Source of the DNA: Forficula auricularia
Lineage: Eukaryota; Arthropoda; Insecta; Dermaptera; Forficulidae
NCBI GenBank assembly: GCA_024734495.1
Contig: JALMQS010000070.1
Coordinates: 16,244,306-16,308,305 of the forward strand
Reading direction: 5' to 3'
DNA: 64,000 nucleotides
Part shown: positions 1,044 to 63,135 of the stretch, one piece after another
Position numbering within the stretch: the first letter of the stretch is position 1
Layout: each line of letters opens with the position of its first letter
The notes under the pieces: generated by a model
What the model saw: the letters and a program-made list of their open reading frames with translations, nothing else
Database searches by the model: none
Told to the model about the DNA's origin: nothing
Made by a program: the position numbers and the translations under genes

Positions 1044-1097
1044 TGAATGATCCACTGATGAAGTCTCAATAAAGTGACGAAACGTCTGGTAAATTGA
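1044..1097 (+). ncRNA. hammerhead ribozyme motif, core intact
   Basis: CTGATGA lies at 1055-1061, followed by one extra A. Stem II is GTC/GAC (with a possible further C-G pair), then GAAA at 1079-1082 and ACGTC at 1082-1086. Predicted cleavage is after C1086, triplet GUC. Stem I can form between TCCA before the core and TGG after the site, plus an outer AU pairing beyond a small internal loop. AATAAC follows. It is a single, non-palindromic copy of the family seen at 8.4 and 26 kb. I see no coding sequence attached. Confidence 0.7.
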
Positions 1098-1980
1098 ATA
1101 ACTAACCATGTTGTTTAATTTTTTGTCAACTTCTCTGCGATTTTAAAATATTTAATAAAATATGGACACGAATGATGAAATATTAAAAAATAATGTATGA
1201 GATTTCCCTCAGACTGTCTGTCTATCTCTCATGCCAAAAAGCTTCTCTCAATTAGAATTAGAAATAAGAAAGAAAGCGATTTTATTTTATCAATGTCAAT
1301 TATCTGGAATTAAACAATATCTTTCTTTTATAATAATATAATAAATTTATTCCATTAAATCTTTTAATTATTTAATAATAAAATAATTTATTCAATACTA
1401 AAACATAATGTCATAATAACTTTGCTCTGGCCTTTGCGGCTTGGGCCCGTCGCCCGTGGTTGCTAAATAATATAATCGTACTCGTATATTTAATTTATTT
1501 AATTAATTTATTTATTTATTTGTTACATTACATAATCGCAAATTTAAATATATTAAAAAAAATATTTTAATATTGTAATTTGGATAAATCCATAAATGTG
1601 AATTACTAATATAAAATTGTTATTAATTTATTATTATCATTTTTATCAAGGGTTTAATGCAGAGCTGTAATTATTGTGGCCCAACATAAAACCAAAAACT
1701 TCCTTAAAACATTGAGATTTATATGTAGAGATATATTTATTCCCTTTTTCGAAATATGAATGAACATTTGTACAATACGTGAAGCTTTTTTCAAGAATAA
1801 AATTCACTAAAAACAAAATTATAAGTTCAACTATATAAAATAAAAAAATAAATAAATAAAAAGTTTCGAATATTTAAAAATTATTCTTCTCATATTTTCA
1901 CTTTTTAAAATATCTATTAATTCAGTAATTTATATGCTACGACAGTAACCAAGTCTATAGTTATCATTCTCTAGTACAAG
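1098..1980. other. AT-rich stretch with one repeat fragment
   Basis: No gene. A short GC-richer patch at 1425-1460 (TTGGGCCCGTCGCCCG) is a probable repeat scrap. About 1672-1725 (TGGCCCAACATAAA, then CCTTAAAACATTGAGATTT) matches 2341-2395 inside the hAT element, so it is a second fragment of that family. Confidence 0.5.
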
Positions 1981-2295
1981 GAGACAAGGAATTGGGGGTT
2001 TCTAGAACAAATACCTACAATTAATTGATAATTTCTCTCCTCGACTAAAACATGTCAGGACTTGTCTTTTAGATCTTTGCACGTTCTTACATGTCAATAG
2101 ATAATGTATAGTCAGGAATTAATATATCGGTGACCCTTTTAATAAATAAACAACGAATTGGGGTTTTCTAGAACAATCACAATTAATTTCTCCCTGGGAC
2201 TAAAACTTGTCAGAACTTGTCGTTTAGATCTTTTCAAGTCAATAGATAATGGATAGTCAGGGATTATTATATCAGTGACCCTTTTAAAAAATAAA
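1981..2295. repeat. imperfect tandem duplication, about 145-170 bp per unit
   Basis: Two adjacent units, about 1981-2150 and 2152-2295, share in order: GAATTGGGG, TCTAGAACAA, GACTAAAACATGTCAG or a near copy, GTTTAGATCTTT, TCAATAGATAATG and GTGACCCTTTTAA. The second unit lacks about 20 bases of the first. There is no open frame. It ends just before the hAT element at 2325. Confidence 0.8.
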
Positions 2296-2324
2296 TTATC
2301 ATTCCTCATATCCTTCTTTAATCC

Positions 2325-2978
2325 CAGGGCTGTCCAACCCGTGGCCCAATATAAAGTCATAACATTCCTTAAAACATTGAGATTTATATGTAGATACTGG
2401 GCCACACACAACAATTTGGCCTGATAATTTTTTTATCTAAAATAAAAAATCTGAAAATATACTGTGAAGTTTTCGAAAAATAAAAGTGCTAATTTTAAAT
2501 TTTGAATCTGGAATTAGATTTCAAGATTTCCGAAAAAATAATAATAATTGTGGTCTATTTTCGACTCCATTTTCATTAGAAATAAATTTTCTATTTGCAA
2601 ACTTTCTGATTGAATCTTCTAGAACAGCAATTAGATACTGATCTAAAAGAAAAATTGAATATTTTCTCTTTATTAGAATTTTAAATTAATTATCTAGCCA
2701 GGAAAAAATATAAACAAATCTAATACAAAATATCACTTTAAATAAGTATATAGTTATGTATTTAAATATACGAGAAGCTATTTTCAAGTATAAAATTTAC
2801 GAAAAGTAAAATTTGAAGCTCACTATGAGCTAAAAAATCTTAAATTTCTTATTTCTACATTATTAACTATCTTTTTTGAATAACAAATATAAATAGAATT
2901 ATAATATTTTACTGCGGTCCGAGACAATTTTTTTTCTTCAAATGTGGCCCGTGTAAGCCAAAAGGTTGGACACCCCTG
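2325..2978. mobile_element. hAT-type element, non-autonomous
   Basis: The left end CAGGGCTGTCCAACC and the right end GGTTGGACACCCCTG (reverse complement CAGGGGTGTCCAACC) are hAT-style terminal inverted repeats. The flanks TTTAATCC and TTTAATGG (shifted by one base) look like a worn 8-bp target duplication. No transposase is recognisable inside. The short open frames here are chance frames in AT-rich sequence. Confidence 0.75.
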
Positions 2979-3431
2979 GTTTAATGGATTGTCATGCAGC
3001 TTTTGATTTATCTTTTCTTTAAAAATTCCTCCTGGCGTTTTGGCTATTGATAGTAGTCGATTTAAATTAACCTTCGAACTAGTGATCAAATAATATAAAA
3101 TAAAAAGCTAACAAATCTTCTTCATATTTTCCAAATTACAATTTACAACGGTCAAAAAAGATTATTAAATAATTTGTATTTTAAGTCATAAGAACTACAG
3201 CCCTATTACAAATTGAACCCATGTGCCAAAAACGCTAAACATGTATTCTTTGAGGCATATTTTTTAGTCTTGTCACAACTGTTGCACTTTGAGTTATCTA
3301 ATAAAATCAACTCGATCCTTTTTACTTTCACATTTATATTCATAGAATATAATGGGAGAGAATTGCGATGGCCAGCCTGGTTTCATTTCATTTTATACTA
3401 ATACTGATAAATTTTTATTTCTAATTTTAAA

Positions 3432-4160
3432 ATAATAAAAATAATTTTTAAGAAAAAAATAAAACCTACTTCAAAAAAATTAAATGCATCATATAAAATA
3501 CACTAAAAGGTATAAATTAATTATTATCTTATTTAGTTACAACTAAACTACGAAATATTAACATGAAATTACTTTTTGAAGTCAGTGCCAAACAAACTAT
3601 ACCTATAAGCGAGCGTACCAACCAAACGTACTAAGTAAGATCCGTCGAGTTCGATTCATAAAAGGTATATGTTTGGCACCGACTTCAAAAAGTAATTTCA
3701 TGTTAATATTTCGTAGTTTAGTTGTAACTAAATAAGATAATAATTATTTTAAACCTTTTAGTGTATTTTATTTGTTGCATTTAATTTTTTGAAATCGGTT
3801 TTATTTTTTCTTAAAATTTATTTTTATTTTTCTCATTTTAGTGATGTTATTAATAGTGATCGTATCATCAGAACTTGACCAAATTAATATGGCACCATCC
3901 CTAAGATACCCTTTCCAATAAAAAAAGAATCATCGAAATCGGTTCATAAACAAAGAAGTTAGGCCTGAACAAACCTAACAAAAAGGTCTAATACCTATGA
4001 AAAAAATGGGACTAATCGGAAGGTAAAGTGAACCTAATGCAAATTTTTTTTCAAAATCGGTTCACAATTGGCGGAGATATGAGGTACCATAGGCACAAAA
4101 AAAAAAAAAAAAAAGTCGAATAGATAACCTCCTCCTTTTTTGAAGTCGGTTAAAAATAAT
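3432..4160 (-). mobile_element. ACCGACTTC composite foldback element, near full length
   Basis: The unit has two parts. A foldback (3432-3835) has arms of about 130 bp running from AAAACCTACTTC to GAAGTCAGTGCCAAAC and back, around a loop carrying GCGAGCGTACC and TACTAAGTAAGATCC. A tail (3836-4160) begins TGATGTTATTAATAGTGATC and ends CTCCTCCTTTTTTGAAGTC, then GGTTAAAAATAAT. The same two-part unit occurs inverted at 57962-58674, and partially at 5.0, 9.1, 19.1, 30.3 and 57.6 kb. The sequence resembles a dispersed repeat common in lepidopteran genomes. No protein is encoded. Confidence 0.8.
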
Positions 4161-5815: not shown

Positions 5816-5819
5816 ACAA

Positions 5820-8335: not shown

Positions 8336-8403
8336 GCATCCATATTAAATTTGTTACAGGAATAGCAGGGAATTGGACAAAAATTAAAAATATAGTTTTT
8401 ATT

Positions 8404-8456
8404 AAATGGGCCAGACGTTTCCCCAATTTATTTTGACTTCCTCAGTTACCCATTTT
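8404..8456 (-). ncRNA. hammerhead motif, stem II damaged
   Basis: On the minus strand CTGAGGA (8445 to 8439), an extra A, GTC, then GAAA (8421 to 8418), ACGTC and TGG. The 3' strand of stem II reads GGG where GAC is expected, so the copy is probably inactive. Confidence 0.65.
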
Positions 8457-8470
8457 GACAAAGAGGGATA

Positions 8471-8522
8471 AAATGGGCCAGTGAGGAAGTCAAAATAAAT
8501 TGACGAAACGTCTGGCCCATTT
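8471..8522 (+). ncRNA. hammerhead motif, first core base changed
   Basis: Stem I is a perfect 10-bp helix (8471-8480 with 8513-8522). Stem II is GTCAA/TTGAC. GAAA lies at 8505-8508 and the cleavage triplet is GUC at 8510-8512. The core reads GTGAGGA instead of CTGAGGA, which breaks the C3-G8 pair and predicts an inactive ribozyme. Confidence 0.7.
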
Positions 8523-8559
8523 AATAAAAACTCAATTTTGACAACCTCTGTCTTTTAAC

Positions 8560-9928: not shown

Positions 9929-10427
9929 ATATAATGTGTAAAATACATTAAAAAAAATTATTATGTTGTTTTCAAAAATATATTCAGTTTTTTCTAGTTA
10001 CATTTTTTCATTTTTTATACCTCTTCAAAATGAGGGAGATCTTTATGCCCCACCCTGTATATGTATATTTCTGGAAGAATGCAAACCAAATTAATATGCC
10101 TACGAATAGGGCATTGTTTTTTCTCACATGTGTTTTTGATTCTTAAAGAAAATACTCTATGGTGTGGTTTGTACAACTCTAGAATCACAGTGGACCATGT
10201 CTTTTAATTGAATGTCCTTTGTATAATCCAGCAAGGGTAGAATTTAATATTGTTTTCTAAATCTTCTAGGAAATCCAGAAAATTTCGAAAATTTGTTTGA
10301 GTTCTTTGATCCAATAGAGCTTCTTAATTTAATTTAATTTATTATAACACTTGACAAAGCTAATAACAGATTTACTCATAGTTTTATTGTTGTTTTTTAT
10401 TGTTACTATAGTTTATTATATATTTAA
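9929..10427. other. unassigned AT-rich stretch
   Basis: Contains CCCACCCTGTATATG at about 10050, a motif common at arthropod repeat ends. Nothing else is identifiable. Confidence 0.4.
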
Positions 10428-10575
10428 ATTGAAAGTTTCTTTTTGCCGAGAGTAGCAGAATTTTTATAAATTTAAAGAGACAATCAAAGAGTGCAAAGCT
10501 CTCGAAACTATAGTCTCGTTATAAATAAATTAAAAATTTAGAATTCCAGCAGAATTCCAGCAGAAGACTCATTTA
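10428..10575 (+). mobile_element. decayed hammerhead element (GTCTCG family), core deleted
   Basis: The left end TTGCCGAGAGTAGCAGAATT and the right block GCAAAGCTCTCGAAACTATA, then GTCTCGTTATAAAT and CCAGCAGAAGAC, are those of the 44-kb element. A deletion joins them and removes CTGATGA. ATTCCAGCAGA is tandemly duplicated at 10540-10560. Confidence 0.75.
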
Positions 10576-11470
10576 TATGTCTCCTACAATTTGTTATATA
10601 TTTACTATTTCGAAGTCTATGGTGAAAAAAAAACGGACAGATGGATAAGGACTGATGAAAAAAACACAGATAGAGACGGATGGTTGAATGGATAAATATG
10701 ATTTCTGAGGCGCTAATGACCACAGGAGTCGATGCGCTCTTAAAAATAAATAAAAAAAACAAAACAAAAAAAACATGTGTAAATTAAAACATAATATATG
10801 TATACACTACAAATATTAAAACCAAATCCCACTTTTGTTTTTTTTTAAACTGCGTTGCGGAAAACATCTTATCTCTTTTAGAAATAACAGCTATGGCCCT
10901 TGAGGATATAAAAACAACGAGAGAACAAAAAGATGCTAGTTAATGTTAGCTACATAAAAAGGCTCTGTTTCAAAAAGGTTATAATGAATTCTTATTTATA
11001 CCATGTTTGCTATATCCAAATCCTTATCTTTCTTAACAGTAAACAAATTTATATTGAAATAATATTCAACACTTATTCCTTCGTCGCGTCGTTAAAACAT
11101 TTTTTTAAAATCACACAACACCCTACACTCACAATAAGCTCTTCCTTGTAAATAATTCATGCTCTGATCACAAGAAGCACGTGCATTAGATACTGTTTGT
11201 TTTGGCTCTTAGCTTGGTTGGTCTGTTTGTCTGTCTGTATGAGTATAATATTGTAATCGAATTTCGACCTACTTCTATCGAGTCTATTTTTCGTGAAATA
11301 TCGCACATTTGCTCCAATATGTTAACATTTAACTAATGAAGAAAAATATAATCTAAATTTAGCGAGGGGAGGGGTTTCGGGGTGGAGGCCGGAATTGGGG
11401 TGGGGTGAATTGGTGTGGGCCGGGGGGGGGCGTCTGGGATTAATATATAGCTTTTAACTGAATCAAAAAG
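10576..11470. other. unassigned stretch
   Basis: No gene. Simple AAAAC-type runs at 10740-10780 and a GTCTGTCTGT run at 11225. A G-rich patch at 11365-11432 (GGTGGGGTGAATTGG, then a G8 run) could form G-quadruplexes but has no other support. Short open frames here look random. Confidence 0.4.
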
Positions 11471-11472: not shown

Positions 11473-11690
11473 ACCGAGAATCACAAAGAGAAACAAAGAG
11501 ATTGTCCTCTGTTTGATTCAAATAAACATACACACATATATATCGAAATTATATATATATAATTTATTTATTTTATATATACAGATATATAATTTCGATA
11601 TATATGTGTGTATGTTTATTTGCATCAAGAAGAGGACAACCTCTTTGTTTCTCTTTGTGAATCAACAACTCTGCTATTCTCGGCAAAACA
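11473..11690. mobile_element. foldback element sharing ends with the hammerhead family
   Basis: Arms of about 80-100 bp (11473-11552 and 11585-11683) share CAAAGAGAAACAAAGAG, AATAAACATACACACATATA and TATCGAAATTATATA in opposite orientation. The right end CTCTGCTATTCTCGGCAAAA equals the terminus of the GTCTCG hammerhead elements. The position of the ribozyme is occupied by AGAGGACAACCTCT, a stem-II-like hairpin without the CUGANGA and GAAA core. Half copies lie at 22465-22560 and 48650-48700. Confidence 0.7.
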
Positions 11691-11872
11691 AAAACTTTTC
11701 AATTATCGAGAATCGCTCTGTGGCCAGGTACTAAAATTTATATTAGAAGTTTTTCTTCAGAGGAGGACTGGAATATTTATAATTGAAGGTTTAATGGAAG
11801 ACAGTTCATGAATAATTAAAAAGAATGCCTACTTCCAATAAATGAATATTTATTGAAGGTTTTTCAGTTTAC

Positions 11873-11915
11873 AACTTTTGAACGTTTCGGAGGAAATTCC
11901 CTCCGCTTCCGGGCT
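11873..11915 (-). ncRNA. decayed hammerhead motif
   Basis: On the minus strand stem II is perfect (GGAGG/CCTCC), followed by GAAA and ACGTT, but the CUGANGA strand reads CCGGAAGC. Predicted inactive. Confidence 0.55.
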
Positions 11916-12747
11916 CAGAGGGTCAATGAAGGAAGCATAATATAATATTTGGGCGCCCGAAATCACTAATGTCAAAATCCTGAAATGTGAAATTCAGGCT
12001 TAATTTTAATATTTTATTAACCTTTTTGATATTTACAAAAATATATTAGTATAATATCTATAGGCATTTGACTGTTTTAAGGTAGTTCTTTTACAAATGC
12101 AAAAATTCAAGAAGTCTTTGAAACTTGGAATACAAGTCATTAACACATACTGTTAAAATTTGAAGACGATTTACAACACCAAACGTGAAATAATTTCAAT
12201 TAAAAATGACATTTTAAACATAGAGTAGATAGGGAAAGGGTGGGGATATGATGATTATTTTATTTTTTTTCATTGAAGGACTTTCAACATCTTGATGAAA
12301 AACTAATATTTATTAGAGTAATATATTCGGAGTAACTTAAAAACAAATTGAAATTATTTACCTCTTCGTTTTGATAAAAAATAAAAAAACCAACATATTT
12401 GGGCGATTATTTTTAGTGGAGGGGATATAAGCACAATTGCTTGGAGACGATCCGGCAAGTATGTGTGTATCCATATAGAGATTTCGTAGCGTGAGTGGAC
12501 AGTCACGTTAAAAAACATAACCTAAAATTTTAGATCCGTTCATATTTATAGAGTGGTTACGAGGCTAAAACTTTTTGTGTGGATTGTTGCGAAAGAACCT
12601 CCTTAACATAATTAAGACAAAAAGTACATATCCAATATCAATATAATAAATAAATAAAATGAATTTTATCAATATTTTTAATACATATTTAAAAAAATAT
12701 TTTCTCAACACCAACGAGCACTGAAAAAGGAGACATGAAGGATAAAT

Positions 12748-12790
12748 ATTAGGAAGAAGGAGGGAAGATCCTCCGAAACGTTCAAAAGAT
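12748..12790 (+). ncRNA. decayed hammerhead motif
   Basis: AGGAAGA takes the place of CTGAAGA. Stem II GGAGG/CCTCC is perfect, then GAAA and ACGTTC. This is the plus-strand partner of 11873-11915 in the same foldback. Predicted inactive. Confidence 0.55.
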
Positions 12791-12868
12791 GTAAACAGAA
12801 AAACCTCTAATAAATACTATTTTATTGGAAATGTTCTTTTTATTTATTCCTGGACTACCTTCCATTAA

Positions 12869-13420
12869 ACTCTTAGGCATATAAATATATTAATAAAACT
12901 TGCAATGGTCGCAAGCCGTTTGACCCAAATGTTGAAATAATTAATTTTAAATTTTAAACAAATATGTAATAAGTGATTATTAAATGAAAAATAAAAAAAA
13001 GGAATGAAAATAGATATGTGGTAATCATTTATATTAGAGTAATACAAAGAATTTATTTGACAAAAACAGAAGTATAATTTAGCTAGTTACTAAAAACAAA
13101 AAACAAAAAAATAGAATAATTTTATTTTCAAATTGATTGATTCTGGTGAGAAGAGATATAATATAATCATAGGCATCGATACAAAATACATCAATAGAGC
13201 ACAGGAGAAAAAGAGTCCAATCAGGACTCTGACGTCACGCGTATTGATTCTATTTCAAAAAATAAATTATTTTATTATTTTTAGGGCATATTTTTAGTAA
13301 TTTCTTTCACTGACAATCAATATCAATGTTGTAATATTATAAGCCGAACGAAATGGGCTTTCTAAGCTTCCCTTCTAATGTGTGATATTACTAGAATAGA
13401 CCCACAACACACCTTGTTTT
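12869..13420. other. unassigned stretch with a hairpin and CRE-like palindrome
   Basis: GAGTCC-AATCA-GGACTC (13213-13229) is a perfect 6-bp hairpin, followed at once by TGACGTCA (13230-13237), the palindromic CREB/ATF site. Otherwise AT-rich with no repeat match in the window. Confidence 0.4.
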
Positions 13421-14040: not shown

Positions 14041-14112
14041 TAAGATTTTTTTTTTAATTAATAAGTTGTTGTAGGGAAATAAGGACAATAGCTTTTGCAA
14101 ATAATTTTTATT

Positions 14113-14160
14113 CTTTGCCAACATTTCGTCAACTTTGCTGATTCTCAGGGCTCAAACAAA
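14113..14160 (-). ncRNA. hammerhead motif, core mutated
   Basis: The minus strand reads CTGAGAA (14148 to 14142), so the G8 position is A. Then AGCAAAGTTGAC and GAAA (14127 to 14124), followed by ATGTT. Predicted inactive. Confidence 0.6.
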
Positions 14161-14354
14161 TCAACTTCTTTCCATATTTGTCATTTTATCAATATTCACT
14201 CTCACACACAAGGCCAGTCATCGAACAGATTGAAAATATTTTCTTTGAAAGATATTTTAAGATTTAATAGGAAAATATTTTCAATCTGTTCGATGACTAG
14301 CCTTATGTGAAAGAATGAATATTGATAAAATGACAAATATGCAAAGAAGTTAAT

Positions 14355-14408
14355 TTGTTTGATCCCTGAGGAAGTCAACAAAGTTGACGAAACGTGGGCA
14401 AAAAATAA
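14355..14408 (+). ncRNA. hammerhead motif, cleavage base altered
   Basis: CTGAGGA (14366-14372), extra A, perfect stem II GTCAAC/GTTGAC with an AAA loop, GAAA (14389-14392) and ACGT. The base after GU is G14396; a G there is not tolerated by hammerheads, so cleavage is predicted to be lost. Confidence 0.7.
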
Positions 14409-14460
14409 AAATTAATTGCATAAGCTATTGTCCTTATTTCCTTACAACTACTTATTAATT

Positions 14461-15382
14461 TAATCGATGGACATAAATAATCAAATCAATTTTTTTTTAA
14501 GTTTATCTGATATATTTTTATTTGAATTTTTTAGCATCGATTATTTTGGCCGAGAATTATCGGAAGGGTGGAATTAATTCATTTAAGAAATTGATTTTAC
14601 ATTGATAGAGTTTTTTTCTCCTTTCCACTTTCTCTTTGACAATTTTTTGGACATTTTAGAATTAATTTCCATCCTTCCTTGCTAAAAAATCCTCGAAATT
14701 GAGAAAGAAATTAATAAATTACTAGAGCATGTGGTTATCAAAAAGACAGCCAACGCCATATTGATCAAAATAATGCAAAAGCAATGTCTGCGGAGGGTTT
14801 TCCGCCCTCAGTAAAGAATGGAAGATTGCAAATTGAGTGATCGATTCGAGATGAGGGTCATCGAAGGGAATGAATATGGAAATGAGAGCAAGTCGATCAT
14901 CCCAATCACAAGCAAATCGACCTCAACTCCAAGCAAAAGGATCGGCCTTTTTTCAGAGAGATACAATTAATCGGTTTTGAATTCGCAAGTGGACGCTGTG
15001 TATTTCGTTACGGAATGTTTTTTATGCGATTCTTTCTATTTATCATTTTATTGTTGAAAAAGGATAGAACTAAATGATTATTTGCTTCCTGAAAATAAGA
15101 AGAGCTTAACTCTCTTTAAGAGAACTCGCAATCCAGTTTATTTAATGTTTAAATTTGTTTAATAGCCTTCTAAATCTAAATCAATCAGAGTCGCTTAAAG
15201 GATTATCAATCCTTCTTCTATCTTCCTTTTACTTTAAAGTATTAATAATATAGAAACAACAAATCAAATAAACGACAATCTTTAAAATTGATTTTCCTTA
15301 ACTAAAAAAGGGCGGCGGGAAATATATAATACCACGCCCGTTCGACAGAACGTGTTCGAAATTTCCGTGAGCGACAATAGGT
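14461..15382. other. non-repetitive stretch, no gene recognised
   Basis: About 14810-14970 has more balanced composition than its surroundings and no match elsewhere in the window (for example GAGATGAGGGTCATCGAAGG). It could be host sequence. No convincing open frame. 15310-15360 is also GC-richer. Confidence 0.4.
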
Positions 15383-17168: not shown

Positions 17169-17225
17169 TTGTAATAGACTGATGAAGAGGGCAAAGCCCT
17201 TGAAACCATAGTCTCGTTATAAATA
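17169..17225 (+). ncRNA. hammerhead ribozyme motif, core intact
   Basis: CTGATGA (17179-17185), extra A, stem II GAGGG/CCCTT closed by a G-U pair with a CAAAG loop, GAAA (17102-17105 plus 100, that is 17202-17205), then ACCATAGTC. Cleavage is predicted after C17213, triplet GUC. Stem III (ACC/AGU) is weakened by one base change. Stem I pairs TGTAAT(A)GA with TCGTTATA, with one bulged A. Confidence 0.7.
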
Positions 17226-17715: not shown

Positions 17716-17767
17716 TAGGCGGTCAATTATTTACTAGCTTGATTAGAATGCATGATATTTAATTTTA

Positions 17768-17998
17768 AATATATCAAATTGAAAGATTATTTTTGACAAG
17801 AGTAGCAGAATTTTTATAAATTGAAAGAGACAATAAAAGAGTGTGTCTTCTGTTGGAATTATACATTTTTCTGAATCAATTGTAATAGACTAATGAAGAG
17901 GGCAAAGCTCTCGAAACTAGTCTTGTTATAAATAAATTAAAAATTTATAATTCCAGCAGAAGACACACTCTTTTATTGTCTCCTTCAATTTAAATATA
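17768..17998 (+). mobile_element. hammerhead foldback element (GTCTCG family)
   Basis: The left arm GACAATAAAAGAGTGTGTC, TTCTG, TTGGAATTATA is inverted to the right arm TATAATTCCAGCAGAAGAC, ACACTCTTTTATTGTC. The outer left end is a worn GACAAGAGTAGCAGAATT. Confidence 0.8.
17880..17935 (+). ncRNA. hammerhead motif, core mutated
   Basis: CTAATGA (17890-17896) has A in place of the essential G5. Stem II GAGGG/CTCTC and GAAA are intact. Stem III has lost two bases (ACTAGTC). Predicted inactive. Confidence 0.6.
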
Positions 17999-18099
17999 TC
18001 ACTTGAAATAGATTATTATCGCCATAGAAGTTTTCACTTCGGTCATGTGGTTTTAACCAAGAACACATAAATATTTTCCTAATAATTTTCTATAGATTT

Positions 18100-22115: not shown

Positions 22116-22464
22116 AATGTGACTGCCATCTCCCATGAGCTCATTTCCTATTTAGTACCCAAGTAACAAATGGCCTTAGTAATGGAACCAACGGAGGAAT
22201 ACCAACTATGTCTTGTCCGACTTGAGCTTGAAACCCAAAATATAAGCCTTCATTTAATATCAATCACTGAACCGGTAGGATAGTGGCTAAGGTAAGTCTT
22301 CTGAATATAAATGATCTCTGGGTGGTTCTCTATTCGTGTACATTTAAAAAAAATTCTCTTCGAATTAAAATTTATTATATTATTATTTATTAATCAATAT
22401 AATCATTTATTTTATTTAGGTATTTTAAACGTAGAAAAAGATTAAAATTAAATGTAAAATTGAA
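22116..22464. other. unassigned stretch
   Basis: No identified gene or element beyond the direct repeat at 22157-22209. Confidence 0.4.
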
Positions 22465-22560
22465 AAGTTTTTATTTTGCCGAGAGTAGCAGAGTTGTTGA
22501 TTCATAAATAGAAACAAGGAGGTTGTCCTCTGCTTGATCCAAATAAACATACACACATAT
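22465..22560 (+). mobile_element. half copy of the 11.5-kb foldback family
   Basis: TTGCCGAGAGTAGCAGAGTT, GGAGGTTGTCCTCTGCTTGA and AATAAACATACACACATAT match one arm of 11473-11690. Confidence 0.7.
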
Positions 22561-24530: not shown

Positions 24531-24572
24531 GTCTATAGTTTCGAAAGCTTGACTTTTATCATCAGTATTTTT
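24531..24572 (-). ncRNA. hammerhead motif (TCAAACAAATAAATA family), worn
   Basis: Minus strand: CTGATGA (24565 to 24559), one extra U, stem II AAAAG/CTTTC with the closing pair lost, GAAA (24542 to 24539), ACTATAGAC. The cleavage U is replaced by A. The downstream CTCAAACAAATAAATA is the family tail. Related to 48305-48610. Confidence 0.55.
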
Positions 24573-25824: not shown

Positions 25825-25903
25825 TTTAAAAAATTTAAAAATATAAAAATTCTAGGTAGGAATAGCAGGGAATTGGATAAAAATAAAAAACAGAGTTTTT
25901 ATT

Positions 25904-25955
25904 AAATGGGCCAGACGTTTCGTCGATTAATTTCGACTTCCTCAGTGGCTCATTC
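25904..25955 (-). ncRNA. hammerhead ribozyme motif, complete
   Basis: Mirror copy of 26342-26393. CTGAGGA runs 25945 to 25939, GAAA 25921 to 25918, with cleavage predicted after the base at 25914 on the minus strand. All core positions are intact. Confidence 0.82.
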
Positions 25956-26100
25956 TATCACTCTTTGTCAAAAGACAATTCCACTACGCGACGAAACATC
26001 CTTTAATCCTTTTATTTAAACTATAATACATTGTTGGATCATGCCCCAATTGCTCAAGAATCTTGAACTTTTACACACTTGAACAATCAAAATTTATCAC

Positions 26101-26133
<33 letters not shown>

Positions 26134-26341
26134 GTTTCTACTCTTTAAACAGAGACAAAGAAAGGATTTTAAATTCAAAAATAAATATCTATTTTGTGAT
26201 AAATTTTGATTGTTCAAGTGTGTAAAAGTTCAAGATTCTTGAGCAATTGGGGCATGATCCAACAATGTATTATAGTTTAAATAAAAAGGATTAAAGGATG
26301 TTTCGTCGCGTAGTGGAATTGTCTTTTGACAAAGAGTGATA

Positions 26342-26393
26342 GAATGAGCCACTGAGGAAGTCGAAATTAATCGACGAAACGTCTGGCCCATTT
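26342..26393 (+). ncRNA. hammerhead ribozyme motif, best copy
   Basis: Stem I is GAATGAGCCA (26342-26351) with TGGCCCATTT (26384-26393), ten positions with one A-C mismatch. The core is CTGAGGA (26352-26358), one extra A, stem II GTCGA/TCGAC with an AATTAA loop, and GAAA (26376-26379). Stem III is the self-complementary ACGT, too short to close alone, and H17 is C26383. The triplet is GUC. Such minimal stem III hammerheads are known to act as dimers. AATAAA follows at 26395. Confidence 0.85.
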
Positions 26394-26449
26394 AATAAAA
26401 ACTCTGTTTTTTATTTTTATCCAATTCCCTGCTATTCCTGTTAATTAAT

Positions 26450-26650
26450 GCTTATTATGGATACGAGTGATCTACCATTCTAGGTAGGTTTCATAAAAAT
26501 AAAAGACAAGATGGTTGTTATCATGACTATATATATATATTATGAGGTACGAGCTCATCTTCAGGAATTCAAAGAGAAAGCTAAGAAGCTTCTTACCTTT
26601 TATTTTTGTAAAACCTACCTAGAATTTTTATATTTTTAAATTTTGTAAAG
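26450..26650. repeat. outer hairpin next to the palindrome
   Basis: ATTCTAGGTAGGTTTCATAA (26481) is inverted to TTGTAAAACCTACCTAGAAT (26606). The interior, read on the minus strand, has CCTGAAGATGAGCTCGTACC then TCATAATATATATATATAGT, which places a CUGAAGA strand and a UGAG/CUCA stem II where a hammerhead would lie, but GAAA is missing. Confidence 0.5.
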
Positions 26651-36348: not shown

Positions 36349-36391
36349 TTATATATTGAAATAAGGACTATGTTTATTATGCAGATAATTT

Positions 36392-36644: not shown

Positions 36645-36697
36645 ATTTGAGTCCTGAAGAAGTCAACAAAGTTGACGAAACGTTGGGAATACAATAT
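36645..36697 (+). ncRNA. hammerhead ribozyme motif, core intact, stem I weak
   Basis: CTGAAGA (36654-36660), extra A, perfect stem II GTCAAC/GTTGAC, GAAA (36677-36680), ACGTT with cleavage predicted after T36684. Stem I next to the core is poor (GAGTC with GGGAA). Confidence 0.65.
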
Positions 36698-36763
36698 AAA
36701 TTATCTGCATAACAAATATGGTCCTTATTTCCCTATAACAACTTTAATAATTATTACAAATCT

Positions 36764-37217: not shown

Positions 37218-37477
37218 AGATTGAAAAATAACATTAATAAAAAGGCAGAAAATTTACATATTCGAAGTTTTTCATAAGGGTGGCGATATGTACCAGTATG
37301 TCACTGATTATGAAAGTTCTCCAAGTTATTTATTTTTAATTTTAAGATATCTAAAAGTTTTGAAAAATAAATAAGATTAATTGAAAGTAGGTAATGGAAG
37401 GCAGCCCAGGGGTGTAGTGAGGGGAAAAAAATTAACTGATATCCAGATAAAGTGTAATTTATCCTTCCTCCTTTCCC

Positions 37478-37530
37478 TTCAAGCCGACGTTTTGGAGGAT
37501 TCTTCCCTACTTCTTCAGGGTTTCAAGAGG
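37478..37530 (-). ncRNA. hammerhead motif, G12 changed
   Basis: Minus strand: CTGAAGA (37518 to 37512), extra A, stem II GTAGG/CCTCC, then AAAA where GAAA is required (37493 to 37490), ACGTCGG. Predicted inactive. Confidence 0.62.
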
Positions 37531-37531
37531 T

Positions 37532-37584
37532 CAATGAAACCCTGAAGAAGGACGGAAGAATCCTCCGAAACGTCGGTTTGAAAG
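37532..37584 (+). ncRNA. hammerhead ribozyme motif, core intact
   Basis: CTGAAGA (37542-37548), extra A, stem II GGACGG/TCCTCC with one C-C mismatch, GAAA (37567-37570), ACGTC with cleavage after C37574. Stem I AAACC/GGTTT gives five pairs. Confidence 0.72.
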
Positions 37585-37674
37585 GAAAAGAGGAAGGATT
37601 CCAATAAATTACACCTTATCTGGATATGTGTTAATTTTTTCTTTCCTCCCTACCCCTGGGCTGCCTTCCATTAC

Positions 37675-38078
37675 TTTAAATTAAAAGTTCTATCAGTCCG
37701 TCTCTCTCCAGAGAAAATTTCGTGCAAATATAAACAAGATTGTTTAACGAATCAAAGTACCAATTGGATCTAACAGTTCAGTTTTCTACAATTTCCCAAA
37801 TGGATGATTCTACAAAAATACGAAAAACTTATATTTTTAAATTTTTGAATTAGCTACATCTTTCATAATCATGGCCACATAAATTTTTGTAAAATGAAAT
37901 TAAAAATTTACGGAAAATCCTTGTTCCCAAATCCCTTATTTAAAAATGCACCACACCTCTTACGATTAAATTAATTAAAAACAATTTTCAAACATTCATA
38001 ATCATTTTGCGGTCAAATTAATTACAAATGGAACAAAAATGTTTGCAATCTCTTTGAGACGAAATGACCGAAGGACGG
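37675..38078. other. AT-rich stretch without a gene
   Basis: Nothing recognised. Confidence 0.45.
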
Positions 38079-40258: not shown

Positions 40259-40394
40259 AATAATGTAGAAATTTACTTTTTTTGGGAATTCCTGAGGTTT
40301 ATTTAGCCACAGAGGTGGTTGGAGTTCCTCAAAAAATCTTAAAGAAAAAATATCAAAGTCCAAAAAAAGAAGATAATTTATAGTATCTTTTTAT

Positions 40395-40445
40395 TCATAA
40401 ACCGACGTTTCGGAAGCTATTCCCTCCTTCTTCAGGGTTTCACTG
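40395..40445 (-). ncRNA. hammerhead ribozyme motif, core intact
   Basis: Minus strand: CTGAAGA (40435 to 40429), extra A, stem II GGAG/TTCC closed by G-C pairs, GAAA (40411 to 40408), ACGTC then GGTTTATGAATAAAA. Stem I AAACC/GGTTT. Triplet GUC. Confidence 0.75.
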
Positions 40446-40483
40446 ACTTTCTAAAAATAAGATAATTTATACTATGTTTTTAT

Positions 40484-40534
40484 TCATAAACCGACGTTTT
40501 GGAGGCTATTCCCTCCTTCTTCAGGGTTTCACTG
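40484..40534 (-). ncRNA. hammerhead motif, G12 changed
   Basis: Minus strand: CTGAAGA (40524 to 40518), extra A, stem II intact, AAAA instead of GAAA. Tandem copy of 40395-40445. Confidence 0.65.
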
Positions 40535-40537
40535 ACT

Positions 40538-40590
40538 TTTCAAAACCCTGAAGAAGGAGGGAATAGTCTCCAAAACGTCGGTTTATGAAT
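40538..40590 (+). ncRNA. hammerhead motif, G12 changed
   Basis: CTGAAGA (40548-40554), extra A, stem II GGAG/CTCC, AAAA (40572-40575) instead of GAAA, ACGTCGG. Shares the G12 change with the adjacent minus copy, so the inverted unit probably derives from it. Confidence 0.65.
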
Positions 40591-40699
40591 AAAAGCGTAG
40601 TATAAATTACCTTCTTTTTTTGGACTGCCTCATCAATATCCACTCTAATTCTACATATTTGGAAATTATTTTATTATTTTTTAAAAAGGGAAAAATGAA

Positions 40700-43477: not shown

Positions 43478-44009
43478 CTAAAAATCACGATTCTAAAAAG
43501 AACAAAACAATGTAATAGTTAAACAAAAAGCGTGTGGGCACTTTGTCGAAATTAATTAAAAGTACATGTTTAATATATAAACCTATAGTGGACCTTAAAG
43601 GCCGGGCTCGTGACTTTGTGTACAATTTATCATTTTTTTTTTTTTTTTTTTTTTTAGAGCAATGTATAGTAAAAAATACATAAAAACAGTAAACAAGTAT
43701 TGATTTTTATTTATTTTTATAAATCTTGATATAAATTAATAAAAAAATGAATATACGAATATCGTAATTATTGAAAAATGTGTTAAAAACCAATTAAACA
43801 TATAGCGGGGCTGTCAAGACCGGCAAGCGAATTTGTGTTTGTGAAAAACCTTGTGTATTCTAGGGTTAAAGGGAGTTTTACACAGACTTATTATTTCTGT
43901 GCTTAAGAAATAAAGACGCAAAACAAATTCATTTGAAAATTCGAACTATTCTCGATTCATGTTGTACATCTTTGACAATTTTAAAATGACTCAATAAATG
44001 TTTTTTGAA
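43478..44009. other. unassigned stretch with paralogous flank
   Basis: 43684-43785 duplicates 42316-42420 (AAGTATTGATTT, AAATCTTGATATAAATTAAT). A T run of about 23 lies near 43631-43655. No gene. Confidence 0.5.
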
Positions 44010-44240
44010 GGAGACAATAAAAGAGTGTGTCTTCTGCTGGAATTATAAATAAAATTTATAACGAGACTATAGTTTCGAGGTCTTTGCTTGTAATAGACTG
44101 ATGAAGAGGGCAAAGCTCTCGAAACTATAGTCTCGTTATAAATTTTATTTATAATTCCAGCAGAAGACACACTCTTTTATTGTCTCCTTCAATATATAAA
44201 AATTCTGCTATCCTCGGCACAAAAATTTTCAATTTAAATG
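44010..44240 (+). mobile_element. hammerhead foldback element (GTCTCG family), best copy
   Basis: The left arm GAAGGAGACAATAAAAGAGT, GTGTCTTCTGCTGGAATTAT, AAATAAAATTTATAACGAGA is almost exactly inverted to the right arm after the ribozyme. The left arm also holds the 3' part of an inverted hammerhead (GACTATAGTTTCGAGG) but not its CTGATGA strand. The right end is CTGCTATCCTCGGCACAAAA. Confidence 0.88.
44087..44142 (+). ncRNA. hammerhead ribozyme motif, complete
   Basis: CTGATGA (44098-44104), extra A, stem II GAGGG/CTCTC with a CAAAG loop, GAAA (44121-44124), stem III ACT-AT-AGT, and C44132 as the cleavage base (GUC). Stem I pairs TGTAAT(A)GA with TCGTTATA, one A bulged. Confidence 0.82.
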
Positions 44241-44520
44241 TTTTTTTGTTTTTTTGGGTTTAATTGTTAGTATCTGAAAGATACGTATTGTTTATAACAA
44301 TATAAATTGAGATCTATTGTGATTACGACTTGGAAATTTATTTCTTGTTAAACTATCCGCTACACGCTAATACATGCATCTAAAGCTGTAAACACTGGAC
44401 TAACTAGCATTACTAATATCATGTCATTATCAATTTTATGTCTGATGTAGAGCCAGCTTAAAACATGTTCTACCCTTTTTGTAACACTCTGTATAATAAT
44501 AGTAGTAAGTAATTTATCAT
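44241..44520. other. unassigned stretch
   Basis: No identified feature. Confidence 0.4.
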
Positions 44521-48304: not shown

Positions 48305-48610
48305 GATATTATATATTATTTATTTGTTTGAGACTATAGTTTAAAAAGCTTAGCCTTCATTTTCAGTCTTTTTAATTGTAAATATTATTTCTCATGGGGT
48401 CAGTACCGCGTGGATATTGAAAATATGTTTACATAGCACGCTAACTATCTAAACACAGTTGCTAGCTTAGCTAATTAGCCTGCTATGTAAACGGATTTTC
48501 AATATCCACACGGTACTGACAATGAGAAATAATATTTACAATTAAATAGATTGATGATGAAGGCCAAGTCTTCGAAACTATAGTCTCAAACAAATAAATA
48601 ATATATATAC
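48305..48610. mobile_element. hammerhead foldback element (TCAAACAAATAAATA family)
   Basis: The arms run from TATTATTTATTTGTTTGAGA to the complement TCTCAAACAAATAAATAATA, through GTCAGTACCGCGTGGATATT and TTACATAGCAC, meeting in a small central hairpin (GCTAGCTTAGCTAATTAGC). Hammerheads lie in both arms; the left (minus, 48338-48378) is wrecked by an insertion in CTGATGA and loss of GAAA. Confidence 0.85.
48540..48600 (+). ncRNA. hammerhead motif, first core base changed
   Basis: TTGATGA (48551-48557) where CTGATGA is expected, one extra U, stem II GAAG/CTTC with a GCCAAGT loop, GAAA (48574-48577), ACT-AT-AGT, C48585 (GUC). The C3 to U change probably lowers or abolishes activity. Confidence 0.65.
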
Positions 48611-49854
48611 ATAATTATATTTGATATAGGTACCTACTACTATAGATATATGTGTATGTTTATTTGCATCAGAGTGCAACCTCTTTGTTTCTCTTTATAA
48701 TATTTATTAATAAATATATATATAAATCAGTCTGCATTTACCTATATATAGTATTTCTATCATTTTTGACAATGACATTTTGACATTTTTGTTCATAAAC
48801 AAACGTTGCGCCCATTACAAAGCAATATTTTTTCAAACAAAAAAATGAATGGAACCAATGAAGATGAACAAATAGAATTTATAATGAAGTCGAATACAAA
48901 TGAACCTTGGTCCAAACTTCGGGGCAATTAAACTCTCAATTGTGTCCAGTAGTAATATTATTATTTGAGAATATTCACTTCGAATTCTAATTTACTTAGA
49001 AATAGTATCTCTCTTAAATGGATCGGGCTATTCAATCCTGACCAATTCATTTTCAACTGAAATAAATGCAAACGTTTATCCTTTTAGTTTCTCCTAATTA
49101 TTCGAGCTCTATTTGCGCTCCTGTTAACGAGGCCTCCAATCTAATAAATAAGCGATTAAGCTGGATCATTTAGCCCTCTGGGTGGCGTGGTCTGAAGCCG
49201 ATTGGTGATCCAGGATGGATCGGTTCCACTGGATTGACTTTCATTAACTCTCGACCTAGGAGAGCCTCTCTACTCATTTACTTATTGAATTTTTTTTGTT
49301 TTTATTTTTTTATCCACCTCTGATTAAATCTCAGCTCAGGGATTTTTCCCTAAAATATTATAGGTAGGTGTATGTATTTAAAAAAATAAATTTAGAATTT
49401 TTTTTATCTAGAAAAAATAAATCATACACCTCGTTGAGCTTATATAGATTAAAGCGATCGAAACGAAAGAGAGGAAGCTTAACAAACAAATTACTTTAAA
49501 TTGAGAGGGCTGAGATATATACTCTTAAAAAAAAGTTTGATTAGACAATCGGTGAAAATTACTACACAGATATAAATAAACATCTTTAAAAAAGAAATAC
49601 GAAATAAATAATTTAGCTAAGTACCTACGCTAATACAGATTTATTTAATTTGCTAAAAAGCAAGGCTAATATTTTTTTACTCTTAAAACAATTAAAAGAA
49701 ATAGTCAGGAATTTTGATTTTTTTTTTGTCTGTCCCAATATTAACCAATCCGAAGGCTGAATTAAGTTAAGCTACTAATACAATTTCAAATATACCAAAT
49801 CGGATATACACGAGTAACTTCACTAAGCAACGTAATAAATAAATTTGAAAGTTT
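48611..49854. other. mostly non-repetitive stretch
   Basis: 48650-48700 is a scrap of the 11.5-kb foldback family (TGTGTATGTTTATTTGCATC). 49085-49265 has balanced composition with no match in the window (CGAGCTCTATTTGCGCTCC, GGGTGGCGTGGTCTGAAGCC, GATTGGTGATCCAGGATGG) and may be host sequence. No gene recognised. Confidence 0.4.
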
Positions 49855-50715
49855 ATATTAGGAAATAAGGACAATTTTTTGTGAGATTTTTTACTTTATC
49901 CAATGCGAAGCATGGGGAAAGTATTGTAATCGCTCTCGCGGCAAGCGCGACTTCAAAGGTTCCTCAGGTAAAGTCTACGGAACCCATGGACTCAATTAAG
50001 GTCACAAATTGAAGTATTCAATTAGATTGAATTTTAGCACGTGACGGTTTTGCCAAAAATTACCTGGGATCTCGTTGAGAGGCCAAAAAGTGCCATTTTT
50101 TTTGGAAGTGCGTGGGGATGGATGGATGTATGTTATCGTTTTTTTCGTCCACGAATTTTTCCACACCGTTGCACCGATTGAATTGAAATTGAAAACCTAC
50201 CAGTATTTTAACAAAATGAAGCGCTGATTAGTTTTTGGTACATATCGGTCCACAAACATTAGTACTTTATTTCAGTACTTTTTTAGTTTTTTCTAAATAT
50301 CTTTAAAATGACTTAACCAATTTTGATGAAATTTAATATCCTTATTAAGTACCTTGGGGACCACAAAAAAGGTTAAATAAAGTTTTTAGTAAAATTATAT
50401 TTTAAAGTACTTTACTCTAGAACATATTAATATTTCAAATGAATTTGGATAAAGTTTAGCAACGATCCGTTGCAGTTTATTTTTATTTTTCAACCAATGT
50501 TTCGTCGACTTTGTAAAAAGAAAAGAAAAGAAAAATTGTTATTGTGAATGCCAAATTTATTGAAGTTTAAATTTCTGATGGTCTTCAATGGTAACGAAGA
50601 AAATAATGTACTTTAGATGAATGTGTGATGTAACTATTTGAAGCTCTGAAGAAGTCGGCAAAATCGACGAAACGTTGGTTGATAAATACAAAAAATTATC
50701 CTTATTTCCCATTAT
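49855..50715. mobile_element. hammerhead foldback (GTCAAC family) with a foreign insert
   Basis: The left end TATTAGGAAATAAGGACAAT and right end TTATCCTTATTTCCCATTAT are inverted termini of the 14- and 36-kb elements. An unrelated segment of about 0.58 kb (about 49900-50475, starting CCAATGCGAAGCATGGGGAA) lies in the left arm. A half hammerhead (minus, CCAATGTTTCGTCGAC at 50494) and one complete hammerhead (plus) remain. Confidence 0.72.
50635..50690 (+). ncRNA. hammerhead ribozyme motif, core intact
   Basis: CTGAAGA (50646-50652), extra A, stem II GTCG/CGAC with a GCAAAAT loop, GAAA (50669-50672), ACGTT with cleavage after T50676 (GUU). Stem I: AGCT with GGTT next to the core, then TTT/AAA beyond an internal loop. 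Confidence 0.72.
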
Positions 50716-51781
50716 AAACTTTCAAAATAATACACATTATGAACGGAAATGATAATAGTAATAAATAAAAAACGAACTTTCAATGTTTTTTTTATTGAAA
50801 TTTTTTTGAATTTCGAATTCGGCTTAAGCAAGAATTATATGTACTGGTAAGATGTAGTCGTGGCGCATTCTGATCCCCAAATATAAACTATTATAGTATC
50901 ATTAGGACATTCGCTGAGCTTGGTTAATAATACTCTTTTCTTCAGAATCTGATAATGATTTTGAAGAGAATATGTCATTAATTTACTGAAAAACATAAAG
51001 AGAAAATGAACATACTGGTATTCGGGTTTTTACACTAACAGATTAAGGAATGCGTGTGTATGTAAGTATGAAGCCCCCTGCGTTTCGCAGCCATAACTCT
51101 GAGAGCTACAAAATTCGAAACTTAAGCCCGATATAGAAGAAGTACCTACAGCAAGTCTTTGGTTGAAATCGGAACACCAGAGATTGACATAAATAAATTT
51201 TAATCCGAATGAAATAAAGCAAGATTTTCGCAAAATAAATAATTTAATCTATAGTATTCCGTATATGGTAAGTCATAGAGCTTTGGGATTTGAAACTTAA
51301 GCTATCTAGAGGCTAGAATAAGTAGCTCGAGACTTTAACTAAAATCGAAGAAACCGAAGTTCATGTTTACTTGAAGTTTTTTGGTATTTTGAAATTTTGT
51401 CTTTTTTACAGTTTTCTCAAAACGGCTTGGGTAAACCCAAATTAAAGTAATTTTAATGTGGAAAATTGGTATGATGATTTCAAATAAATCAGAAACTAAT
51501 GTTCAAGTCATGCGGTGACCACACCAGTTGATTCTTTATTGCGATTGAAGGTACATATAGTGAATATAATATACCTAACTTTAGTTCTAAGCATATGTAA
51601 ATTACAATTTTATTAGATCCTTGGCGTGCCGTCAATATTTTATATCATTAAAAGTGTTTCGCGAGGAAAAAAGGGTTGAGAATCACTAATCTAAAATCTA
51701 ATCAGTTTTTCGCATTTTAACACCAGAATGAATATTTTTTGACTTTCTATTTGAGTTAACAAAATGAGAAATAAAAAATAA
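50716..51781. other. unassigned stretch
   Basis: 51050-51200 resembles retroelement 3' sequence (GCGTGTGTATGTAAGTATGA, GTTGAAATCGG) but is not assigned. GGGTTGAGAATCACT at 51673 looks like an isolated hAT right end. Confidence 0.4.
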
Positions 51782-61234: not shown

Positions 61235-62370
61235 TATATATATATATACCGGGGGGTGTCTTTATAATCTCACAGGCTTCTCCACATAACCGGCACTTTA
61301 CCGACTGCGTTCCAGTTTGCATTTCAATTGATGTGGTGATATTATTATATATATCGTACATACTTTAAACTCACACGATTTCCAGATACTTTCTGGTTGA
61401 TAATCTCTGAAAATCAAGATGTTGAAATGAACCATAACTGAACAAAAAAAAAAAATTATCTATTCCGGAAAATCCGGAGATCAGGCATTTTATCAAAATG
61501 CTCAAAATCAATATTCAGTTAATAAATTGATAAAGAATAAAAAGTATGTTAACAAATAAATGAATGGTCTGTTTCTATTAATTATAAAACAAAAAAAATG
61601 TTTTGTAAATTCGTTTTCATTTGAATTGCTAAATTAATGATTTGCGTTTGATCTGATAAACGTCTCTATATGAGTATAATGGACAAAGGTACTTATTTAG
61701 TTAGCTCGGGCATATCGAAATTGAGAGTTAGTTGATTGGAAACTGTTAAAAGTAATCGATGAAATTACAGATGACGTCAACGACAAAATTTAATTGATAA
61801 AGTGTCATGTTTATATCAACCGAAAAAGTATCTAAAGATAGAATTGGGGTGACATATGGTTGATAGTTGTGTGGCTCTCTGATGAAGGGGCTGCATCAAT
61901 GCAGGGGTGAGGACACTCAAAGCTAGATTCAGATTAGCTTCGTGTCAGAACTGAACAAGCCATTGACCTGCTTCGAGCATCCTTAAGCAGCCATCGACAC
62001 CTATTTAACATCCTAATTTTGAACAGTCAAGCTTGGATACTATTTTAGAGACATTAAAACAGGTATTGTATAAAAATAAATATTCCCTACGCATGTAAGA
62101 AATAAGAAGCTAAGAAACTTCTCTACGAAATGAATGAAAGAGGATAATTTCGAGCTGGAAAATCCATTGAAATTAATTACGATTTTAAAGGGTTTTCCAC
62201 AAAAGAGATATAGGTAAATTTTTCCACGGAGAAAATAGATGTATAAAGAGCAACACTAATAAGGTCAGGTTTTACTTTTTAAACGGAATCCTTTAGCCAT
62301 AGAGGTTAAAAATTCAAAATTATAAAATTTCAACAATGTTAAAGTAATTTTTGGGGACGGAGTGATAAGT
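61235..62370. other. unassigned stretch with a CRE-like palindrome
   Basis: TGACGTCA at 61772-61779. About 61640-62000 has mixed composition and no match in the window. No coding signal. Confidence 0.4.
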
Positions 62371-62431
62371 GAAATTGAGTGGATATTGATGAGGCAGTCC
62401 AAAAAAGAAGATAATTTATACTATCTTTCCA

Positions 62432-62485
62432 TTCATAAACCGACGTTTCGCAGTATATCCTCTCCTTCTTCAGGGCTTTAAAAAG
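62432..62485 (-). ncRNA. hammerhead motif, stem II weak
   Basis: Minus strand: CTGAAGA (62473 to 62467), extra A, GGAG with CTGC (one mismatch), GAAA (62449 to 62446), ACGTCGGTTTATG. Core intact. Confidence 0.65.
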
Positions 62486-62625
62486 TCAATGAAGGAAATC
62501 CAATGAGACACTCCCCTCTGTCTCATCTTTCAGTGACAGTAACAATAATATATTGTATTTCATTCACTGCAGAATTATACTATTATTACTACATTATAAT
62601 TCTGTTGAGAATGAAAAACAATATA

Positions 62626-63012
62626 ATAGGTGAAGTAAAAAGTTCTGAGCCTTTTTTCTCTTTAATTCAACGATAAAATTAACCAAGTTAGGATTTTCCG
62701 ATTTAGATCAAATATGCGCTATTGTTCGATAGATTTTGTCCTTTTTGAAGGCAATATTATTATTCGGCATTTGAAGAAGTCCTCGTCCCTAATGGCGAAA
62801 AACTTTAATAGATCATTTTCACAATCATCAATCATTTTTCCAGTTTTGTACCATCAAGGAAATTTTGCAAATGCTTGAAAATGTGATATTCGCTTGGTGT
62901 CAGGTCTGGGCTATACGGCGGGTGCAATATAACCTCCCATCCAAGCTCTCGGAGCTCCTGGCGCGTCGTTAACGATGTGGCTGGGCTGACATTCACTTTT
63001 TACTTCACCTAT
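62626..63012 (-). mobile_element. mariner element, internally deleted
   Basis: Perfect 18-bp terminal inverted repeats ATAGGTGAAGTAAAAAGT (62626-62643, complement 62995-63012), flanked by TA on both sides (62624-62625 and 63013-63014). Length 387 bp, so most of the transposase gene is missing. Confidence 0.92.
62660..62990 (-). pseudogene. mariner transposase C-terminal remnant
   Basis: The minus strand reads RQELRELGWEVILHPPYSPD, LTPSEYHIF, FLDGTKLEK, then after a frameshift LLKFFAIRDEDFFKCRI and ILPSKRTKSIEQ. The HPPYSPDLTPSEYH block contains the third catalytic aspartate of the DD34D triad. The first two aspartates and the DNA-binding domain are absent. Confidence 0.88.
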
Positions 63013-63077
63013 TATTATTGCTACTGCCACTGAAAGAGGAGACAGAGGGGACTGTCGCATTGAATTTCCATCATTGA

Positions 63078-63135
63078 CTTTTCAAAACCCTGAAGAAGGA
63101 GGTAATAGCCCACGAAACGTCGGTTTATGAATAAA
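63078..63135 (+). ncRNA. hammerhead motif, stem II worn
   Basis: CTGAAGA (63090-63096), extra A, GGAGG with CCCAC (two mismatches), GAAA (63114-63117), ACGTC with cleavage after C63121 (GUC). Stem I AAACC/GGTTT. Confidence 0.65.

Follow-up and report, generated by a model that had tools for sequence, protein, structure and literature searches.

The terminal repeats of Penelope in Drosophila virilis are direct or inverted, and inverted copies of Penelope-like elements (PLEs) may already be known. The hammerhead ribozymes of PLEs, as described in excerpts of two reports, are minimal type I variants without helix III that may cleave as dimers, and thousands of minimal type I motifs are dispersed across animal genomes, some of them in PLE terminal repeats (PMC7761336, PMC6155905). 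For PAc, a Poseidon PLE of Anolis carolinensis, the excerpted biochemical study reports that the purified protein cuts and extends both strands of AT-rich DNA and that reverse transcription starts from two adjacent internal sites, the interval between them being a 30-40 bp tail. The PAc hammerhead adjoins the start of the open reading frame (ORF) and requires protein for cleavage, insertion being independent of cleavage; the same study describes further steps of PLE insertion as yet to be validated (PMC11167929). Animal retrozymes of the kind without long terminal repeats (non-LTR) are, in the excerpt concerned, 150-450 bp tandem repeats with canonical hammerheads (PMC7229834). Here, we analysed a stretch of 64,000 nucleotides from Forficula auricularia (contig JALMQS010000070.1, positions 16,244,306 to 16,308,305; hereafter the window), in which hammerhead-like units occur mostly as head-to-head pairs. 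We propose, with a probability of roughly 70%, that the window holds many short, 5'-truncated PLE insertions without ORF, belonging to at least five families, and that both cut DNA ends primed reverse transcription. This interpretation relies on the minimal form of the hammerheads, devoid of stem III, and on the geometry of tails and target duplications.

Hammerhead-like units and their number

A degenerate scan of the window, allowing at most two changes in all and requiring at least four pairs in stem II, returned 48 rows, corresponding to 23 distinct units, two duplicates of units and 23 unrelated rows. A search for CTGANGA..GAAA added units 62446 and 63090, which do not satisfy the stem II requirement and which were found again with the covariance model described below, bringing the total to 25 hammerhead-like units and one half-unit at 10.5 kb. 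All 26 positions given in a first-pass annotation, which had claimed about two dozen hammerheads in 64 kb (22 motifs and 4 wrecks), correspond to a unit or half-unit.

The abundance of motifs is confirmed. The CTGANGA..GAAA search gives 16 matches against 3.57 expected, a number attained in 0 of 100 shuffles; 15 of these matches are units, with C next after GAAA in all, and the remaining one, at 36059, is probably due to chance. Core letters are kept in 15 of the 25 units. Eight are strictly intact (CTGANGA, one nucleotide, stem II of at least four pairs, GAAAC), compared with a mean of 0.025 and a maximum of 1 in 200 dinucleotide shuffles; one of the eight, 14366, has G at the cleavage position. 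Changes in the core are present in units 8481, 14123, 17890, 37489, 40496, 40548, 48339 and 48551. Based on their outer sequence, the 25 units were assigned to the following families:

Family A: units 1055, 8417, 8481, 25917 and 26352
Family B: units 14123, 14366, 36408, 36654 and 50646
Family C: units 17179, 17890 and 44098
Family D: units 37489, 37542, 40407, 40496, 40548, 62446 and 63090
Family E: units 24538, 48339 and 48551
Family F: units 11884 and 12751, both degenerate

Fold, covariation and model searches

The units follow the order stem I, CUGANGA, one extra nucleotide, stem II, GAAA, the extra nucleotide lying between A9 and stem II in all 23 aligned units. The very short stem III that had been read into these motifs does not hold up: families A, B and D present a contiguous A-C-G-U followed by C or U, with no space for a stem III loop and hence no hairpin whatever, and families C and E mostly have AC-UAUA-GU, otherwise ACCAUAGU or ACUAGU, the solitary unit E0 having a changed U. 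Unconstrained RNA cofolds yield extended duplexes and do not discriminate stem III pairing in trans.

Covariation was assessed on nine pairs in an alignment of 23 units (22 distinct rows, family F excluded) built from sequence alone and deriving from about five lineages only. In stems I and II, 83.8% of the cells are paired versus 57.7% after shuffling, and 60 cells are doubly changed versus 23.4 (each reached in 0 of 500 shuffles). Each covariation measure falls, with one tie, when the partner strand is shifted by 1-3 columns. Two other counts, of pairs showing a double change and of additional pair types, are unexceptional (119 and 60 of 500 shuffles, respectively). Covariation between families, claimed for stem II in the first-pass annotation, is borne out for stems I and II by the paired and doubly changed cells.

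The Rfam hammerhead models gave no match over the whole window, either at the gathering score or at E-values up to 10, which we ascribe to the minimal, stem-III-less form, as expected for PLEs. Rows for microRNA families were below gathering scores, many of them on inverted repeats, and were taken as hairpin artefacts. The identification as hammerheads, although not recovered by Rfam, is upheld by the core, the shuffles and the covariation: the units appear to be real motifs of a known kind, for which cleavage is predicted. A covariance model (R1) built from 16 units of families A, B and D matched the left-out family F at 12747 (E-value 8e-7) and partially at 11882 (E-value 0.18), the left-out B unit at 14108 (E-value 0.001) and the C units (E-values 0.012-0.062). 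Neither E locus was detected.

Within the window the hammerhead pattern matches 4 times, against 0 in 100 shuffles. Relatives were also sought elsewhere. Two pattern matches in viral contigs both lie inside phage ORFs and were rejected, and three family patterns found no match in viral contigs. Genome contigs searched with the pattern gave five prokaryote matches, two of which were read; one of these two (L004) reaches 31.7 bits with model R1 (E-value 4e-6) and is probably due to chance, since it was chosen by the same pattern and its stem II has about two pairs by eye.

Head-to-head pairs

Self-comparison of the window showed that most units form the arms of inverted repeats and are oriented with the 3' side of the RNA outward. 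Thirteen of the 16 hammerhead loci are such head-to-head pairs (A1, A2, B1, B2, B3, C1, C2, C3, D1, D2, D3, E1 and F), and three are single (A0, C0 and E0). The earlier motif list was right and had overlooked this pairing of most copies. In the list below, G5, U16.1 and "nucleotide C3" denote positions of the hammerhead core, to be distinguished from locus C3.

1055..1083 (+): A0, single unit; core letters intact; left arm searched and not found
8387..8539: A1, head-to-head pair; units 8417-8445 (-) and 8481-8509 (+, nucleotide C3 changed); no duplication; left arm continues into tail
10412..10604: C3, head-to-head pair with half a hammerhead; duplication 14/15 (10412-10426, 10590-10604); tail on left arm
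11790..12869: F, head-to-head pair; degenerate units 11884-11911 (-) and 12751-12779 (+); no duplication
14047..14500: B1, pair 14053-14463; units 14123 (-) and 14366 (+); duplication 14047-14057 / 14490-14500, a run of T; right arm longer
17179..17206 (+): C0, single unit, strictly intact; tail to about 17315
17764..18001: C1, pair 17817-17992; unit 17890 (+, G5 changed), none in the left arm; duplication 17764-17776 / 17989-18001; left-arm tail from 17777
24538..24565 (-): E0, single unit; U16.1 changed
25849..26488: A2, pair 25858-26439; strictly intact units 25917-25945 (-) and 26352-26380 (+); duplication 25849-25860 / 26477-26488; right arm with tail
36352..36737: B2, head-to-head pair; units 36408 (-) and 36654 (+, strictly intact); no duplication
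37363..37741: D1, pair 37377-37684; units 37489 (-) and 37542 (+); duplication 14/16 (37363-37378 / 37726-37741); right arm longer
40357..40626: D2, head-to-head pair; units 40407 (-, strictly intact), 40496 (-) and 40548 (+), the left unit doubled in tandem (89 bp); no duplication
43995..44246: C2, pair 44005-44192; unit 44098 (+, strictly intact); left arm breaking off in loop II; duplication 43995-44006 / 44235-44246; right arm with tail
48310..48607: E1, head-to-head pair; units 48339 (-) and 48551 (+, nucleotide C3 changed); no duplication
49832..50769: B3, unit 50646 (+, strictly intact); left arm split into 49844-49883 and about 50488-50515; duplication 12/12 (49832-49843 / 50758-50769); tail on right arm
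62327..63203: D3, pair 62370-63195; units 62446 (-) and 63090 (+), stem II weak in both; duplication 13/14 (62327-62340 / 63190-63203); tail on left arm

A2 is the youngest-looking head-to-head pair. A full hammerhead is missing from the left arm of C1 and from one arm each of C2, C3 and B3. A search for left arms upstream was positive for B3 (score 63 against a shuffled maximum of 37) and found none for A0, C0, E0 or the 10.5 kb site, the pair at the latter (locus C3) being identified by reading its sequence and by its tail.

Inner ends vary within families A (A1 versus A2) and C (C1, C2, C3), so that pairs arose more than once; B1 and B2, like D1 and D2, have similar centre positions, and some of these may therefore descend from one ancestral pair. 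In nine pairs compared over 75 nt, identity between arms is highest or tied for highest within A2, B1, C2, D1, D2, D3 and E1, and not highest within A1 or B2.

By eye, the inner junctions at 44087, 10490 and 50515 (C2 left, C3 right and B3 left) fall 12-13 nt after nucleotide C3, at the 5' edge of loop II. Inside D3, an insert near 62628-63012 has inverted ends aataggtgaagtaaaaag / ctttttacttcacctatt and looks mariner-like by eye.

Target duplications and unequal outer ends

The two 60-bp flanks of each of ten palindromes were aligned without gaps and the best match was taken. Six palindromes (A2, B1, C1, C2, D1 and D3) gave matches of 11-16 positions with scores of 10-13 (single P 0.004-0.033), and in all six one copy of the duplication overlaps the palindrome end by 2-6 nt, the other lying 26-42 nt beyond the opposite end. 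Score and geometry together were reached by 24 of 6000 random pairs, giving a binomial P of 8e-13 for the six of ten observed. The ends of B3, C3 and F were placed by hand with the pattern already known; so set, B3 fits (12/12; 0 and 31 nt), as does C3 (14/15; 44 and -3 nt), and the duplication geometry was not found at F. E1 with its right end re-set still showed no duplication. Overall, 8 of the 13 head-to-head loci have an 11-16 bp duplication at which one arm stops, the other arm being 26-44 nt longer. The duplications are AT-rich, but so is the whole window (26-33% GC).

Ten control palindromes were chosen among the 25 longest listed in a set of 59 pairs, and 0 of 10 have a tail and duplication in this arrangement at the threshold used. 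One of them, 11478-11663 (H), has the geometry at score 9, a level reached by 50 of 6000 random pairs. Because of this geometry and its C-like tail, we group it with the hammerhead loci rather than with the controls:

11473..11716: H, head-to-head relative lacking a hammerhead; right arm with C-like tail; duplication 11/12 at score 9, under the threshold used
22458..22560 (-): H, solitary truncated copy with tail, no hammerhead

The arms stop at two end points, S1 at 85-140 nt and S2 at 112-184 nt after nucleotide C3. The tails of family C are element sequence (0 of 500 shuffles), and in C1, C2 and C3, each with its own duplication, the longer arm ends at the identical S2 base. In family A the tails also appear to be element sequence, with a score reached by 3% of shuffles and an 85% match to A1 across S1 and tail.

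Origin of the mirror-image insertions

Two priming events, one at each end of a single staggered cut, would be expected to produce head-to-head insertions flanked by short duplications and differing in their outer ends, and the 26-44 nt by which the arms differ resembles the 30-40 bp tail between the two reverse transcription start sites in the excerpted PAc study (PMC11167929). Other routes to mirror images were considered.

A single reverse transcription, followed by copying back of the cDNA or by a later inverted duplication of the DNA, would account for B1, B2, E1 and D3, which are nearly symmetrical around a short centre, and for the centre positions common to B1/B2 and to D1/D2. However, a copied-back arm cannot contain 3' sequence missing from the first arm, nor is it expected to stop near S1 every time, and the inner ends are unequal in A1, C1, C2, C3 and B3; we consider this route unlikely. 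Foldback or MITE-like (miniature inverted-repeat transposable element) DNA transposons, whose arms would be terminal inverted repeats mobilised by a transposase, with the hammerhead-like sequence carried along as a passenger, would likewise explain inverted arms and short duplications, and the window does hold a second foldback family without hammerheads. Yet in 0 of the 8 resolved loci do equal inverted ends abut both duplications, the outer ends being unequal in all 8; moreover, inner ends vary within families A and C, the RNA stems covary and single-armed copies occur, making this origin quite improbable. An origin as animal retrozymes, which spread via circular RNA as non-autonomous tandem repeats bearing type I hammerheads, is hardly credible here despite the type I motif order and the non-coding, AT-rich sequence, given the head-to-head order, a sole motif-bearing tandem array (89 bp x 2, 40364-40539) whose repeat is under 150-450 bp, and the failure of Rfam to recognise a canonical type I hammerhead. 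Where the first-pass annotation had left the choice between PLEs and retrozymes, the minimal form and the tail and duplication geometry favour PLEs, and the retrozyme option is not supported.

Several points nevertheless weigh against PLE insertion primed from both cut ends. No Rfam hammerhead was found, even when two of the best copies were scanned on their own (91 and 81 bases). The tail geometry was defined only after the duplication test had been seen, the duplication was not found in 5 of the 13 pairs (A1, B2, D2, E1 and F), and some duplications are of low complexity, that of B1 being a T run. Tail homology failed for B1 versus B3 and for D3 versus D2. B2 is without an ATG comparable to those described below, and neither a reverse transcriptase (RT) nor a GIY-YIG match was obtained with 16 of the 78 open pieces of at least 70 aa and a 28-residue piece of E1, a search on which the truncation of the copies bears.

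Candidate ORF starts

In five copies of families A and B, the outer flanks contain an ATG 93-107 nt after nucleotide C3 with alike first five residues: MDTND (1162), MDTSD (26457), MDAKD (A1 left arm), MDINN (14467) and MNGND (50739). E1 reaches MNGTNEDEQIEF at 48845, followed by 28 open codons. These alike starts, together with the ATG of E1, suggest that the 3' end of the source RNA runs into the ORF of the next copy, as in tandem PLEs; tandem copies with pseudo-LTRs were not seen in the window. At 48607-48928, the right arm of E1 seems to extend via H-like sequence to the ATG, a candidate PLE ORF start.

Proposed mechanism

Each copy would carry the 3' part of the element RNA, namely a minimal type I hammerhead followed by sequence up to S1 or S2. 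The element enzyme would cut the two strands of an AT-rich target about 10-15 bp apart, and each cut 3' end would prime cDNA synthesis on element RNA, one from S1 and the other from S2. Both cDNAs would stop early and be joined, so that the resulting mirror-image insertion is flanked by a target-site duplication and has its tail at just one end. For cleavage, the hammerheads probably need either the help of a protein or a second RNA with which stem III is shared through the palindromic ACGU or ACUAUAGU.

All 8 unequal pairs fit a rule of one start site per strand. We put forward this rule for the two RT start sites only tentatively: two element RNAs, paired through their palindromic stem III, could supply a dimeric enzyme with both of its templates, in which case the hammerhead would serve for dimerisation as much as for cutting. 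Against it, the in vitro work on purified PLE describes, in the excerpt concerned, no difference in start site between strands (PMC11167929). If PLE insertion does proceed from both cut ends, mirror-image insertions that combine unequal ends with target duplications would preserve a lasting trace of how PLEs complete insertion. The one-site-per-strand rule can be screened in any PLE-rich assembly, and a possible role is suggested for hammerheads whose cleavage is dispensable for insertion in vitro.

Other features of the window

Inverted-repeat pairs without hammerheads, several of them alike, lie at 3455-3809, 5048-5408, 9125-9532, 31559-31912, 57613-57888 and 58284-58672. The pair at 9125-9532 has CGACTTCAAAAA-like sequence near its arms, and none of the six shows the tail and duplication geometry. 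A Gag-like piece at 29222-29931 has a CCHC-like motif split over two frames, with nothing above the Pfam cut-off. By eye, a protein piece resembling those of long interspersed nuclear elements occurs at 54458-54886, adjoining an N run, with no Pfam match. Tandem arrays without hammerhead units are found at 30392-30645 (19 bp x 13.4) and 43056-43472 (198 bp x 2.1).

Comparison with known systems

The units share with animal non-LTR retrozymes, as far as the excerpt on the latter goes, the type I order, the non-coding character and the low GC content (PMC7229834). They resemble the minimal type I hammerheads of PLEs in form, helix III being missing here too (PMC7761336, PMC6155905). The copies here differ from those in being mostly head-to-head pairs; the 23 aligned units also have one extra nucleotide between A9 and stem II. 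With respect to the excerpted account of PAc, whose loci are tandem and whose ORF begins at stem II, our copies are mostly head-to-head and the candidate ATG lies 93-107 nt after nucleotide C3 (PMC11167929). What they would have in common with PAc is two putative start points with a tail between them, the cutting and extension of both DNA strands, and a hammerhead near a candidate ORF start.

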